From positions 1-20,160 of IMG/VR virus record IMGVR_UViG_3300044959_000068: DNA of 20,160 bases, one strand, 5' to 3'. The notes beneath the pieces are model-generated. The model was not told the DNA's origin, made no database searches, and saw nothing but the letters and a program-made list of their open reading frames with translations. The position numbers and the translations under genes were made by a program. Shown piece by piece: positions 3,206-9,098 of the stretch. The DNA is from a virus. Each line of letters begins with the position of its first letter. Within the stretch, counting starts at the first letter, position 1.

Positions 3206-3532
3206 TTATCTAAGCGGCCTACCTATAAATTGAGATTCCCATCTATTACCATAGGATACATTAGTATTTGCACATGACAATATATCATCTATATAGTGAA
3301 GATTATCTATCACATCTGGTGGTGTGTGTATACCGGCTGATTCTATAATGTCAACAAGACGCTTAGCTGTTGCAGCCAGCGACGCAAGCCTATTCACAAA
3401 ATTTGGATGTTTTATATAATGAGGTGACTTATCGTATGCGGCAAGCATCCTTGCCGCCTGCTTATTAAGATTAGACAATTGCCCAATAATTATTGTATAT
3501 TTTCTGTCCATACAATAATGATTAGACATCAT
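3206..3532 (-). CDS. Hypothetical small protein, 108 aa
   Basis: I do not recognise this gene. The product has 108 residues and looks mainly helical through the middle (about residues 14-66, with repeated Leu and Ala positions), followed by a Pro-containing turn and a second short helical stretch. There is no signal peptide or clear membrane segment. Its ATG overlaps the TGA of the dCMP deaminase as ATGA, so it is almost certainly co-translated with that gene. Two adjacent ATG codons (3532 and 3529) make the exact start uncertain by one residue, and a third in-frame ATG lies at 3511; none has a strong Shine-Dalgarno site. Coupling to a nucleotide-metabolism gene upstream and a virion gene downstream gives no clear guess at function. 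Confidence 0.7.
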   Translation of the reverse strand: MMSNHYCMDRKYTIIIGQLSNLNKQAARMLAAYDKSPHYIKHPNFVNRLASLAATAKRLVDIIESAGIHTPPDVIDNLHYIDDILSCANTNVSYGNRWESQFIGRPLR

Positions 3533-3969
3533 TTCACAGCAGTATTGAGTACGACAACAGATGGCAATGTATTCAGATTACCACCTAAAATCTTATAGTC
3601 AACATCACCATACTGTTCCAGTATTACAATTCTTTTCACGCCTGCGTTAACCAGCGATTTATAGCATGCTAGACACGGACTTGCTGTTACATACATTATA
3701 GAGTACGATGTATCAACCCCATTCTTAGCAGCCTGCAAGATTGCATTCAACTCTGCATGTACAGTCCTTACACAATGACCATTATCAATTATACAACCCT
3801 TATCGGAACAGTGATCGCCGCCATAAATAGAACCATTATAACCAGTAGCCAATATCCTACGATCCCTTACTAGGACTGCACCGACTTGTTTCCGCGGACA
3901 CGTCGACCTTGTTGCAACAACTTTTGCAATTGACATAAAATATTCGTCAAATGACTGACGTGGCTGCAT
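3529..3969 (-). CDS. Deoxycytidylate (dCMP) deaminase
   Basis: This zinc enzyme deaminates dCMP to dUMP, feeding dTMP synthesis in the infected cell. The catalytic motif HAE (in RTVHAELNAI) supplies the zinc histidine and the proton-shuttling glutamate, and SPCLACYK supplies the two zinc cysteines. A second Cys/His cluster (HC...GC...HC just before HAE) resembles the structural zinc site of T4-type dCMP deaminases. The segment YFMSIAKVVATRSTC and the GYNG turn are family hallmarks. I chose the ATG at 3969 because family members typically begin a few residues before SFDEYFM. An in-frame ATG at 4053 would add 28 residues that look unlike the family, and neither start has a clear Shine-Dalgarno site. 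It is the first gene of the left block, and its stop overlaps the next start as ATGA. Confidence 0.92.
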   Translation of the reverse strand: MQPRQSFDEYFMSIAKVVATRSTCPRKQVGAVLVRDRRILATGYNGSIYGGDHCSDKGCIIDNGHCVRTVHAELNAILQAAKNGVDTSYSIMYVTASPCLACYKSLVNAGVKRIVILEQYGDVDYKILGGNLNTLPSVVVLNTAVK

Positions 3970-4078
3970 ATTGGATTCACAAATATCTAAGCCTGTAACT
4001 GCAGATTGTATGATTGTAATGCCATTACCCATAAAACCAGCACATGAAAGCATTTATGTGAATACAATAGCGCAACTA

Positions 4079-4108
4079 TTGCAATTATAAATCCTGCAAC
4101 GCTACAAT
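4079..4108 (+). promoter_or_regulatory. Candidate sigma70-type promoter for the plus-strand zinc protein
   Basis: TTGCAA at 4079-4084 and TACAAT at 4103-4108 are separated by 18 bases, each a near match to the bacterial -35 and -10 consensus. The predicted start point falls near 4115, just ahead of the GC-rich leader. It points toward the only plus-strand gene. It is a pattern match by eye, with no transcript evidence. Confidence 0.4.
4084..4089 (-). promoter_or_regulatory. Candidate -10 element facing the dCMP deaminase
   Basis: On the minus strand these six bases read TATAAT, a perfect -10 hexamer, 30 bases before the in-frame ATG at 4053. No convincing -35 box sits 16-18 bases upstream, so the site could need an activator or be a chance AT-rich match. 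It overlaps the rightward candidate promoter, so the two could exclude each other. Confidence 0.25.
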
Positions 4109-4109
4109 A

Positions 4110-4193
4110 TGTACAACACTGGCGGCGCGTGGCCCGCCGCTTGCAGCGGCGCGCGGCGCGCAGCACAGCGCGCGCATGGTGTACAACTATGGC
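4110..4193 (+). repeat. Direct repeat flanking a GC-rich hairpin-forming block
   Basis: TGTACAACACTGGC at 4110-4123 is repeated as TGTACAACTATGGC at 4180-4193 (12 of 14 identical), exactly 70 bases apart. Between them lies a roughly 60-base block of almost pure G and C in an otherwise AT-leaning genome. It can form a 7-bp stem (4135-4141 with 4145-4151) and a second GCGCGC stem (4156-4161 with 4168-4175). In the predicted rightward transcript this would be a structured leader ending just before the ATG at 4189. Confidence 0.6.
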
Positions 4194-4380
4194 TAAACAA
4201 ATCATGCAAAAACATCTGTGCGCAAAATGCCAGCATAGGAAGGCAATCTATAATTACAATAATCGATGGAAAGCTGATAGGCTACACACTTTATGTACGC
4301 GATGCTACAGGTCTGAAATGGACCGCATGCGCGCAAAGAACTTAACCATTATATACAGCACGCAATACGAATGCAGATAA
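4189..4380 (+). CDS. Small CxxC/CxxC zinc-finger-like protein, 63 aa, only plus-strand gene
   Basis: The frame from the ATG at 4189 encodes 63 residues. A CAKC pair and a CTRC pair, about 24 residues apart, enclose a basic and aromatic segment containing YNYNNRWKADRLHTLC, and CYRSEMDRMRAK follows. I recall small bacterial hypothetical proteins with this KADR-x-HTLC-x2-CYRS pattern, but could not search for them. A treble-clef or zinc-ribbon fold binding nucleic acid or protein is the natural guess. The frame could extend to a GTG at 4129, but those residues come from the GC-rich block and are an unlikely Arg/Ala run. No clear Shine-Dalgarno site precedes the ATG. A candidate promoter lies upstream and the hairpin at 4387-4415 starts 7 bases after the stop, giving a cassette of about 300 bases. 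It opposes every neighbour, which suggests an acquired accessory gene. Confidence 0.6.
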   Translation: MAKQIMQKHLCAKCQHRKAIYNYNNRWKADRLHTLCTRCYRSEMDRMRAKNLTIIYSTQYECR

Positions 4381-4386
4381 AATGAA

Positions 4387-4415
4387 CCCCGCCCAAGTGG
4401 TACACTTGGGCGGGG
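4387..4415 (-). terminator. Strong hairpin terminator after the major capsid gene
   Basis: CCCCGCCCAAGTG at 4387-4399 pairs perfectly with CACTTGGGCGGGG at 4403-4415 around a 3-base loop. Read on the minus strand, the stem is followed by a broken T tract (TTCATTTTATC), as expected for a factor-independent terminator of the leftward capsid operon. On the plus strand it directly follows the stop of the 63-aa gene but lacks a T tract, so it would be weaker there. It could also protect the 3' end of the capsid mRNA. Confidence 0.85.
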
Positions 4416-4442
4416 CTGCACTTAAACTACTAAGATATAGTA

Positions 4443-5657
4443 TTACTTATGACCACGTGCGACTGCGCGGCTATTTGGTACTACGAATCCAACAATCTCA
4501 CCAAATGCCCAGCCCTTCACCATCTCGCGGTGGCTAAACTTGTTGAAGGGCTCCGAGAATAGCTCGACACGAACGCCCATTTCGCCGAGGTACTCGCTAG
4601 CGGTAACCGCGTAGACAGTACCTGCAGGCACAACCTCCTGAACGTTCGTGCCAGCTGCAGTGATAATCTGCGCATTGAGCACGTTCCCAACATAACCAGC
4701 GAGGATTAACTCGCGCTGCGTTACTGGGTCAACAGTCTGCGAGCCGTTCAGACCAACTGACGTCTTGACAAGGTCAGTTAGCTCACGACGGTTGATGAGG
4801 AACTTGTCGACAACAAGGCGGTGACGCTCAACCTGATACCTTATATCTTCAAGAGCCGCAACACCAAGCGTTGAGAAAATGGTATCAGCATTGACGGTGG
4901 TTGCAGCACGATCAAGTAGTGCTAGGCACCGCTTGTCTTCCTCAAGCTCAATTTCCTGACGCGCCGTGTCCTGCGCACGGTCTAGGACATCGAAGTTCAT
5001 CTGATAGATGTCCTCGATGTCAACAGTAGGGAACGAGGCGATCTTGAACTCTGACGGCATGACATACTTGCCGCTTAGCCGAGATTCAATACCCTGGCCA
5101 TCCTGACCAATTACCCAGGCCGTGGCGCGAACGTCCTTCGCAACACGGAACAATTCGCCCTGAGCTAGTGGACGCACCCGTAGTATCTTACGGGCCCATC
5201 CCTCATAGTCAATGATGTCCTTAATGGGGAGGAGCAGCTCCTGCCCTACAATTGCAAAACCCTCACCAGTAGGGTCACGCAACGCAGCAGCAAGAATCTT
5301 ACGCCGCTCCTCTGCCTTTAGAGGCGACGGTTCGCGATAGAGCGAGCCTGCAGTCTTCTTGGTAACGTTATTCAACAGATACGCGATCTGTTGCAGGGCA
5401 TCCTTCTTATCGTATGCATTAAGCTCGCCAGACGCATCAAACATTCTTGACTTGGGATTACCAAGTGCCGCACGAATGTCTGCGTGGCCAGCATCCGTGT
5501 ACCCCCCAAATGAAGGCGGATTAAAATTGCCCTTATCATCAACCATGGCCTCGGTCTCCTTATTGGAAACCTTGACCTTTGTTGTAGTAGCAAGGGCAGG
5601 ATGAGCCTTCTGCACTGACGCGTTCTTTATTTGCCGATAAGGATTGATAACACCCAT
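4443..5657 (-). CDS. Major capsid protein (HK97-fold type)
   Basis: This is the shell-forming head protein. The 404-residue product has family features: a charged N-terminal region suited to be a scaffold-like delta arm, a helix-rich middle with a spine-helix-like DTARQEIELEEDKRCLALLD, and a C-terminal axial-domain segment near VPAGTVYAVTASEYLGEMG. I assign it from these patterns, from its place after the protease/scaffold gene and from the strong terminator behind it; fold identity is inferred. I place the start at ATG 5657, because GGAG sits 9 bases upstream; a TTG at 5672 in the same frame would overlap that ribosome site. By eye its isoleucine codons are mostly ATC and ATT, whereas TerL uses ATA often, consistent with selection for high expression. 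N-terminal processing by the upstream protease is plausible, but I cannot place the cleavage site. Confidence 0.88.
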   Translation of the reverse strand: MGVINPYRQIKNASVQKAHPALATTTKVKVSNKETEAMVDDKGNFNPPSFGGYTDAGHADIRAALGNPKSRMFDASGELNAYDKKDALQQIAYLLNNVTKKTAGSLYREPSPLKAEERRKILAAALRDPTGEGFAIVGQELLLPIKDIIDYEGWARKILRVRPLAQGELFRVAKDVRATAWVIGQDGQGIESRLSGKYVMPSEFKIASFPTVDIEDIYQMNFDVLDRAQDTARQEIELEEDKRCLALLDRAATTVNADTIFSTLGVAALEDIRYQVERHRLVVDKFLINRRELTDLVKTSVGLNGSQTVDPVTQRELILAGYVGNVLNAQIITAAGTNVQEVVPAGTVYAVTASEYLGEMGVRVELFSEPFNKFSHREMVKGWAFGEIVGFVVPNSRAVARGHK

Positions 5658-5677
5658 TTTACTTATCTCCAATCATA

Positions 5678-6491: not shown

Positions 6492-9098
6492 CTACTTATT
6501 AAAAAATTTGCTTGCGGTTCTACTAACCATAGTATTACCTAAAGCTGCTCTAATGTTTCTTCTACTGTTGTTTACGGGAACAGTATCATCTACATCAGAG
6601 TCACTAAAGGATGCAGATGGATTTATTGGTAGATTCCCTTCCACCGCAGCCTTACGCACCGCCTGGCTAGGCTCATTCTTAGCCTGCCGCAATGCCTGAA
6701 CACTAATGCCAACTGGTTGCAGATGCTTAATGTCATTTTCTAGCGCATCAAATGCTTCATCACTCATTGCAACCAGTTCTGCAGCTCTATCAACCATAGA
6801 CGAGGCAGTAGCCTCAAATCCATCTGAGGTAGCCTCTATTAATGTAGAAGCAGTAACTGGGTCCATGCCAGGGTAAAATTCATCGCCGCCAAGGTCTAGC
6901 TCTGACGTCAGCACATCAAACATACGGGCCTTCATGGGGCTAGATTCCAGATTCAATGCCTGGCGCTTAGCAGCTAGCTTTAATGCCCTAGCAAATTTAG
7001 ACTTTAGTGATTCAAATACCTCAGACTTAATATTAGCAAGACGCGACTTATATAGCTTCTCAACTCGTGCAACGTGCTTCTTAGCTAAATCAGTAACTGC
7101 GGCCCTAACCTTTAGGCCTAACGCAGCTTCACGTGCAGATGCCTGCATACCAGGCTCTGTTGAGCCATCCTGTGACAGCGGATCATAATCATCTGGTATT
7201 AGTTCAAATGGCTCATCTTCTAGATCTGAAGAACCAACAATATCATCTTCAGCAGCCATCTGCGCGGTCTTAGACTTCGACTTATTATTCGACTTACTAT
7301 AAGAAAAGTCTAAATGTAGATCTTCAAGCGTAGACTTGGGCGCCTTACCATGCCCTTCATTATCTGCATGTTCCTCACCGGCCAACGGCTTCATACCAGT
7401 TGGCTGTTCAGCATTATCACGAACGGCGTCATCAAGAGTAGAATCACTCAAATCTCTCTTCTTACGCTTCTCTGCGCGATCAGAATGCTCATCATCCAAC
7501 GTACTACCAGCTGGCTTACCACGCATGTCGCCATACATATCATCATCGCCACCTTCAATTGATGGCTTCTTGTCACCCTCGCTACGCCCACCGGCAAAAT
7601 CTTCAACATGGAACTCTAAAACCTGGCCAATGCGTGGTGATGCAATAGCATTGTACTTCTCCATGGTCTCCACAAGACCACGAGACGCTATGCTGGTTAA
7701 CACTTCAACAGCTATCTTCTTTGCAGACTCCCTATCAGTAGGCTTATCCTTAGGCCTGATAAGGAAAAGACTACCACGCTTTGTACCTACAGTCACATTA
7801 CCAGCATTTGTAACAGTGACTTCAACATCATTATATGCATTCTTAAACATCAAGTTGGTACCCACAGTCTGCTCCTCAATTTTGTCAATATCAGCTTCAA
7901 TGTTTTTCAAAACAGCGCTTCTAGCCACCTCTGCCGGGGCTGGAGAAGCTGTATCACTAAGTATACCTATTTCAGCAGGCGAAACATCACCTTGGCTATC
8001 TAACTTTTTCTCTGTGTACTCGTCAATAGACATCGCACCACTAGTATAATTAGGGTCGAGCTTCTGCTTTAACTTCAGATATAGAGCAGGGTGCATGTCC
8101 TTAATTGACTCAAGCTCATTTAAAATATCTTCTTTATCAGTAGGCTCAGCGCCAGCGCCAACAGCCTGCGCATACTTCGCAACAGCCGCCTCCAATTTAG
8201 ATATCCTATTGGCTAGAATTAAATTCTCTGATTCTAGCTGCAGACTAGCTGGTGCTACCTCGAGCAATTCCTTCTGCCTTGCTGTTGGATCAGCTGGCTG
8301 ATCTACACGTGAAATTTCTGTAAATTCAACCTCACCGCACTTCTCGAAAGACATTTTCATGCTACCTGATGCGGTCTTATACTGCTTCTTCTTGTTACTG
8401 CCGCGTATGTGCTCACAAAATTGTGACGCAGATCTGGCCCTATTACCACATATACTACAGTCAGTATAGCCAGCAGTACATCCCATCGACAGCCCATCTA
8501 ATGCCCCGGTTTTAACGCCATGAGCAAACGTAGGGTCTTTCTTCGTGTCGATGGCTAGTAAAAGTTCAACAAATTCATCCTTAACTACAGTGCCACACTT
8601 CTTACAATATATACCAGTCTCATCATCTCTATTTTCACGCGCAGCAGTCTTAGTACCACAGCTAGGACACTGCTCCAACGGCGGCGATTTATCGTTATAA
8701 TATGCATCTATAACCACACCACGTGCTGTCTTAGGGTTATCAGCCTTGTGATTAATATGGTGAGGCTTACCTATAAATGTCTGGAAAACTGCAGCATTAC
8801 GCTGATGGTCAAAACGCAACAATTCATTACGTGGGAAAGCATCACCATTTTCGTTAGGTACCTCTGCAGTCACAGCCCTAACTACTTCATATAGGTAATC
8901 CTTAGGATTATTTGATATATTATATTTATCAGCCGTGATATTCAATATATCCTGTATCTTAATACTCCCCCTAGCTGCCTCCTTATAATGGGACTCCTTC
9001 GATGCATTCTTCAAGAAACGTAATGACTGCGAATCGGCATCGTATTCTGCCTCAGCAATCCATTCAAGTGGAATTTTAGCAGTCTTCCAAAATCCCAT
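6492..9098 (-). CDS. Prohead protease fused to a scaffold-like region, 868 aa
   Basis: The N-terminal third resembles phage prohead proteases: an ENGDAFPRNELL segment (residues 83-94), then GKPHHINHKAD with likely catalytic His117, and DGLSMGC with likely catalytic Ser204. VEFTEISRVDQPADPTA (257-273) matches the family's closing strand. Such enzymes digest the scaffold and trim the capsid during maturation. Two Cys clusters interrupt this domain: C144/C147/C165/C168 and C214/C217/C228 with H230, suggesting two bound zincs. Residues from about 285 onward are charged and coiled-coil-like, with a small folded segment near 417-500, an acidic linker (500-650) carrying STLDD, STLDD and STLED, and a helical C-terminus, as expected for an internal scaffold. 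Several phages encode these as separate genes. The stop is TAG at 6494-6492. A purine-rich GGGAT lies upstream of the ATG. Active-site assignment is by motif only. Confidence 0.85.
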   Translation of the reverse strand: MGFWKTAKIPLEWIAEAEYDADSQSLRFLKNASKESHYKEAARGSIKIQDILNITADKYNISNNPKDYLYEVVRAVTAEVPNENGDAFPRNELLRFDHQRNAAVFQTFIGKPHHINHKADNPKTARGVVIDAYYNDKSPPLEQCPSCGTKTAARENRDDETGIYCKKCGTVVKDEFVELLLAIDTKKDPTFAHGVKTGALDGLSMGCTAGYTDCSICGNRARSASQFCEHIRGSNKKKQYKTASGSMKMSFEKCGEVEFTEISRVDQPADPTARQKELLEVAPASLQLESENLILANRISKLEAAVAKYAQAVGAGAEPTDKEDILNELESIKDMHPALYLKLKQKLDPNYTSGAMSIDEYTEKKLDSQGDVSPAEIGILSDTASPAPAEVARSAVLKNIEADIDKIEEQTVGTNLMFKNAYNDVEVTVTNAGNVTVGTKRGSLFLIRPKDKPTDRESAKKIAVEVLTSIASRGLVETMEKYNAIASPRIGQVLEFHVEDFAGGRSEGDKKPSIEGGDDDMYGDMRGKPAGSTLDDEHSDRAEKRKKRDLSDSTLDDAVRDNAEQPTGMKPLAGEEHADNEGHGKAPKSTLEDLHLDFSYSKSNNKSKSKTAQMAAEDDIVGSSDLEDEPFELIPDDYDPLSQDGSTEPGMQASAREAALGLKVRAAVTDLAKKHVARVEKLYKSRLANIKSEVFESLKSKFARALKLAAKRQALNLESSPMKARMFDVLTSELDLGGDEFYPGMDPVTASTLIEATSDGFEATASSMVDRAAELVAMSDEAFDALENDIKHLQPVGISVQALRQAKNEPSQAVRKAAVEGNLPINPSASFSDSDVDDTVPVNNSRRNIRAALGNTMVSRTASKFFNK

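Follow-up and report, generated by a model that had tools for sequence, protein, structure and literature searches.

The window, by which we mean the whole 20,160-base virus record analysed here (IMG/VR IMGVR_UViG_3300044959_000068), carries on its plus strand, at 4189 to 4380, a gene for a 63-aa zinc-finger-like protein with the cysteine spacing CxxC-x21-CxxC. On one side of it lies the end of the major capsid protein gene (4443 to 5672, minus strand, phrog_2522), and on the other a divergent, leftward gene for a dCMP/ComEB-like deaminase (dCMP_cyt_deam_1; 3529 to 4053, minus strand), with a 108-aa gene (3206 to 3532, minus strand) making up the remainder of the accessory module. A promoter-like sequence (4079 to 4108) and a GC-rich leader (4116 to 4180), both on the plus strand, precede the zinc-finger gene, and a hairpin with a T-rich tail on the minus strand (4385 to 4417) separates its end from that of the capsid gene. 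The original prediction placed the gene inside a virion operon; it does adjoin the end of the capsid gene, but its other flank is the deaminase gene, so it is not between two virion genes. Among annotated phage records, Virus Rctr197k has the closest capsid gene (66% identical), and the comparison drew on 35 IMG/VR loci whose capsid genes are related to that of the window. Elsewhere in the window, an 868-aa head maturation protease-like protein (6492 to 9098, minus strand) has a weak zinc-ribbon match of the TFIIB type (E 1e-4) at about residues 143 to 230.

The 63-aa frame begins with an ATG, ends with a stop codon at 4378 to 4380 and encodes MAKQIMQKHLCAKCQHRKAIYNYNNRWKADRLHTLCTRCYRSEMDRMRAKNLTIIYSTQYECR. 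No clear Shine-Dalgarno sequence precedes it, as is also true of several other genes in the window. We count this frame as a genuine predicted gene because of its homology: homologues keeping the cysteines are present in related phages (in L003, within its visible part) and in bacteria, chiefly Acidobacteriota, so that the plus-strand CxxC/CxxC gene proposed originally is borne out. Among 22 related contigs searched, three carry a homologue (L022, L003 and L004, with capsid identities to the window of 77%, 75% and 74%, respectively). All three copies run opposite to the capsid gene, with identical CxxC-x21-CxxC spacing, the L003 copy being cut by the contig end with its first cysteine outside the visible sequence. 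A better profile, run against 36 records including Rctr197k, gave these same three as its only clear matches, the fourth match, in L029, being short, weak and within a longer frame. The gene is thus present in three close relatives and absent, as far as the contigs reach, from those with capsid identity of 73% or less. A viral scan with the window protein alone found no members, and direct searches of phage records with the 63 residues or with the L022 homologue gave no match. More distant viral members are found in L045, as a 62-aa gene on a 167-kb contig, and in L046. In L046 (4536 to 5297, minus strand), the zinc-finger domain reads in frame into a longer frame, with a Shine-Dalgarno-like AAAGGAG and an ATG inside it, and this could be either a fusion or a case of overlapping starts.

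In most relatives, a homologue of the 244-aa gene of L004 follows the capsid gene at a distance of 105 to 406 bases. In L004 itself three genes, for the zinc finger, a 101-aa protein and a deaminase, push it to +1159, while in L006 its homologue stands at +5319, with a homing-endonuclease-like gene intervening. The same slot in the window holds the zinc-finger gene, the 108-aa gene and the deaminase gene, which shares 56% identity with its L004 counterpart. From these arrangements, the region behind the capsid terminator looks like a variable insertion site, and the zinc-finger gene is, as expected of a moron, an extra gene inserted between genes that adjoin one another in relatives. Homing-endonuclease-like genes occupy the slot directly behind the capsid terminator in L022 (7357 to 8775, with a DUF4379 treble clef), L006 (7329 to 9029) and L007 (7334 onward).

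The strong hairpin that was noticed after the stop of the gene is real, with z values of -5.5 and -6.9 on the two strands, but it is not the gene's own terminator. Its C-run begins 6 bases past the zinc-finger stop, and the hairpin lies 25 bases past the capsid stop. Such a hairpin (z of at least 2.6 against shuffles) recurs 5 to 43 bases past the capsid stop codon: 26 of the 29 loci compared, the window and Rctr197k included, have one, its sequence differing between loci, and the zinc-finger gene is absent from most of them. Because the hairpin recurs in capsid loci that mostly lack the zinc-finger gene, and because the T-rich tail follows it on the minus strand, we assign it as the predicted terminator of the capsid gene. 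The zinc-finger gene likewise ends against the capsid hairpin in L003 and L004, and in L022 it ends close behind the stop of a 213-aa gene on the capsid strand. A second hairpin block (TTTTACCTC...GAGAGG), with no Rfam match, follows the capsid terminator in L008, L010, L012 and L015.

The promoter fared less well. The sequence TTGCAA (4079 to 4084)-N18-TACAAT (4103 to 4108) exists as described, but the 20 kb contain 52 promoter-like matches, this one included, where shuffled sequence gives 44.9 +/- 6.5, so that the match is not above chance. An accessory gene on the opposite strand, patchily present and seated in an insertion slot, is what one would expect of the self-contained moron originally proposed; with a hairpin that belongs to the capsid gene and a promoter match at chance level, however, a fully self-contained unit with its own promoter and terminator seems improbable.

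The GC-rich leader is a more consistent feature. The 60 bases from 4116 are 83% GC, the most GC-rich 60 in the window and 4.6 sd above its mean, and the most GC-rich 60 bases precede the zinc-finger gene in L004 (73%) and L022 (90%) as well. The leader had been described as structured, but its fold of -46.2 kcal/mol is about that expected from dinucleotide composition (z -1.5); with no excess stability and no Rfam match, we rejected it as a structured RNA. We also dropped the idea that the leader was inserted between 8-base repeats (TGTACAAC), since the window has 117 pairs of this kind. The L004 and L022 leaders are each related to that of the window (p about 0.001 against shuffles), and the same kind of comparison found no relatedness between these two. 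Since the leaders are related while the neighbouring gene differs in L022, the leader accompanies the zinc-finger gene. One might suppose that the finger binds its own leader and so controls both itself and the divergent deaminase module, as related leaders separate the divergent gene pair both in the window and in L004; the L022 leader, however, stays with its gene though no deaminase gene adjoins it, and we consider such local regulation unlikely.

Comparison of the 63 residues with Pfam, NCBIfam and PHROGs gave no convincing family match. The Pfam families Zn_ribbon_16 (PF21957) and DUF7685 (PF24734) score 18.1 and 15.9 bits, both below the cut-off of 27, and matches to HNH endonucleases, Lar and type I specificity subunits are too weak to be credible as identities. 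The AlphaFold model, of middling confidence (pLDDT 71), has a beta hairpin and then a long helix that begins at the second CxxC, which is the treble-clef order of zinc knuckle, beta hairpin and helix, although a fold search with the model returned no significant match, the weak ones being RING domains and uS14. We infer zinc binding from the conserved cysteines, and the protein is probably a stand-alone, treble-clef-like finger. An RNA- or ribosome-binding finger, built like the ribosomal protein uS14 and modulating host translation, could account for weak but repeated uS14/S29 matches by both sequence and fold, and for the basic helix after the second CxxC in the model, but all of those matches are non-significant and RING domains score equally, which leaves this role quite unlikely. 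A virion or morphogenesis protein is very unlikely, as the gene is on the strand opposite the virion genes, is absent from most relatives and is found in bacterial chromosomes, even though the L046 domain runs into its longer frame within a structural-looking cluster.

The bacterial homologues give a more definite identity. A first scan of bacterial genomes with the four phage sequences found nothing, and members were retrieved by a DNA pattern for C-x2-C-x15-D-x2-H-x-L-C-x2-C-[YF], which hit 31 bacterial stretches. Of these, 28 are in real frames, nearly all from records titled Acidobacteria or Vicinamibacteria. The resemblance to small bacterial proteins suspected in the original prediction is therefore supported. 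A model made from bacterial members only scores the window protein at 64-70 bits; with the motif residues fixed, the protein scored 64.4 bits and the best of 1000 shuffles 37.1, and every phage member tested outscored its 1000 shuffles, made with the nine pattern residues fixed in place. The window protein also has the family spacing, CxxC-x21-CxxC with a D-x2-H-x-L core. Because these scores stand so far above the shuffles, the earlier hunch that the protein is of host type is borne out; very likely the protein is a member of an unnamed family that occurs chiefly in Acidobacteriota. With 18 candidates scored per genome, the family is present in at least 19 of 396 Acidobacteriota genomes, some of which supplied the family model, and in none of 148 Bacteroidota; within Acidobacteriota it is confined to a minority of genomes. 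Phage and host copies were not resolved from one another in a tree of 44 columns. The window capsid gene was not found in the 396 Acidobacteriota genomes and was set aside as host evidence, leaving the zinc-finger family as the one link to a host.

Upstream of the bacterial family genes is a candidate promoter, TGTCAC-N10-TANNNT with TGACC ahead of it. TGTCAC-N10-TANNNT is perfect in 11 of 28 bacterial loci and in none of 950 control stretches. With at most one mismatch allowed, 12 genomes picked for having the zinc-finger family contain 39 sites of the long form TGACCTNNNCTGTCAC-N10-TANNNT, against none for the reversed pattern, and 199 genomes contain 52, against 3 for the reversed pattern. 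Genes just behind these sites include recA (in two genomes, L116 and L131), ssb, rtcB, Cas3-like helicases and further zinc-finger paralogues; the radA sites were discounted, as they stand well ahead of radA, within the end of the gene before it. Small motif-controlled proteins in L103, L105, L109, L111, L117, L132, L148 and L150 share a C-terminal RRRRAQxxARHxL-like peptide, with or without a zinc finger. A gene for a WYL-type regulator lies within 500 bp of 8 of the 28 family genes, in several cases divergent from the same site, and the two whole regulators scanned have WYL and WCX domains. These adjoining genes are suggestive of WYL control and damage induction. The RecA-NDp promoter has a TGTC element and a TANNNT -10 element. 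The mycobacterial WYL regulator PafBC uses this promoter to drive recA along with further damage genes (PMC6789036, PMC8223512). On this sequence evidence, we infer that Acidobacteriota have a PafBC-like damage regulon that contains the zinc-finger family; the candidate regulon spans L103 to L159 (L131, L116 and L156, for example), and our literature search found no description of such a regulon with this family in the phylum. The phage copies stand apart from it. No TGTCAC-N10-TANNNT is found upstream in L004, L022 or L045, and the best match upstream of the window gene is imperfect, wrongly spaced and inside the deaminase gene. Nothing thus ties the phage gene itself to DNA damage, and the phage would make the protein on its own terms.

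Our best explanation is that an accessory phage gene for a finger of the Acidobacteriota family acts on the host damage or defence response, and we give this account as a whole somewhat less than an even chance. The gene would have been captured into the variable insertion site past the capsid terminator, where it points toward the capsid gene and lies beyond the control of the host promoter. During infection, its product might bind the partner of the host protein, whether nucleic acid or a damage-response regulator, and so copy or blunt the host response. That the finger taps or blunts the damage response is a tentative proposal, in which the host, fold, expression, partner and effect of the phage finger are all predicted ones. 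More broadly, it is possible, if doubtful, that small zinc fingers of a new family are part of a WYL-controlled, PafBC-like DNA-damage regulon of Acidobacteriota, and that large phages of the phylum captured such fingers, freed from this control, to steer the damage and defence response of the host. The analysis provides a function-linked context for a protein family without a name in Pfam, NCBIfam or PHROGs, and it points to a candidate host phylum for a phage that is known from metagenomes alone. On the basis of sequence only, it further predicts that Acidobacteriota have a DNA-damage promoter, one likely output gene of which is carried by phages.

Among known systems, phage morons and late-operon accessory genes resemble the window gene in their insertion slot, opposite strand and patchy presence, but the window gene differs from morons in that its promoter match is at chance level and its end lies at the terminator of the capsid gene. 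Zn_ribbon_16 and DUF7685 share the paired CxxC zinc-binding layout, with scores below the curated cut-offs, as do ribosomal uS14 and the RING fingers, with weak, non-significant profile and fold matches. The Acidobacteriota set differs from the PafBC/RecA-NDp regulon of the Actinobacteria in its extra TGACC half, is read from sequence alone and concerns the bacterial homologues rather than the phage gene, but is like that regulon in its WYL-type regulators, recA, and the TGTC and TANNNT elements. The unnamed Acidobacteriota CxxC-x21-CxxC[YF]R family assembled here agrees with the phage copies in cysteine spacing, size, the D-x2-H-x-L-C core and the basic helix after the second CxxC. The TGTCAC-N10-TANNNT promoter is missing from the phage copies, as are the C-terminal extensions that many of the bacterial ones have.
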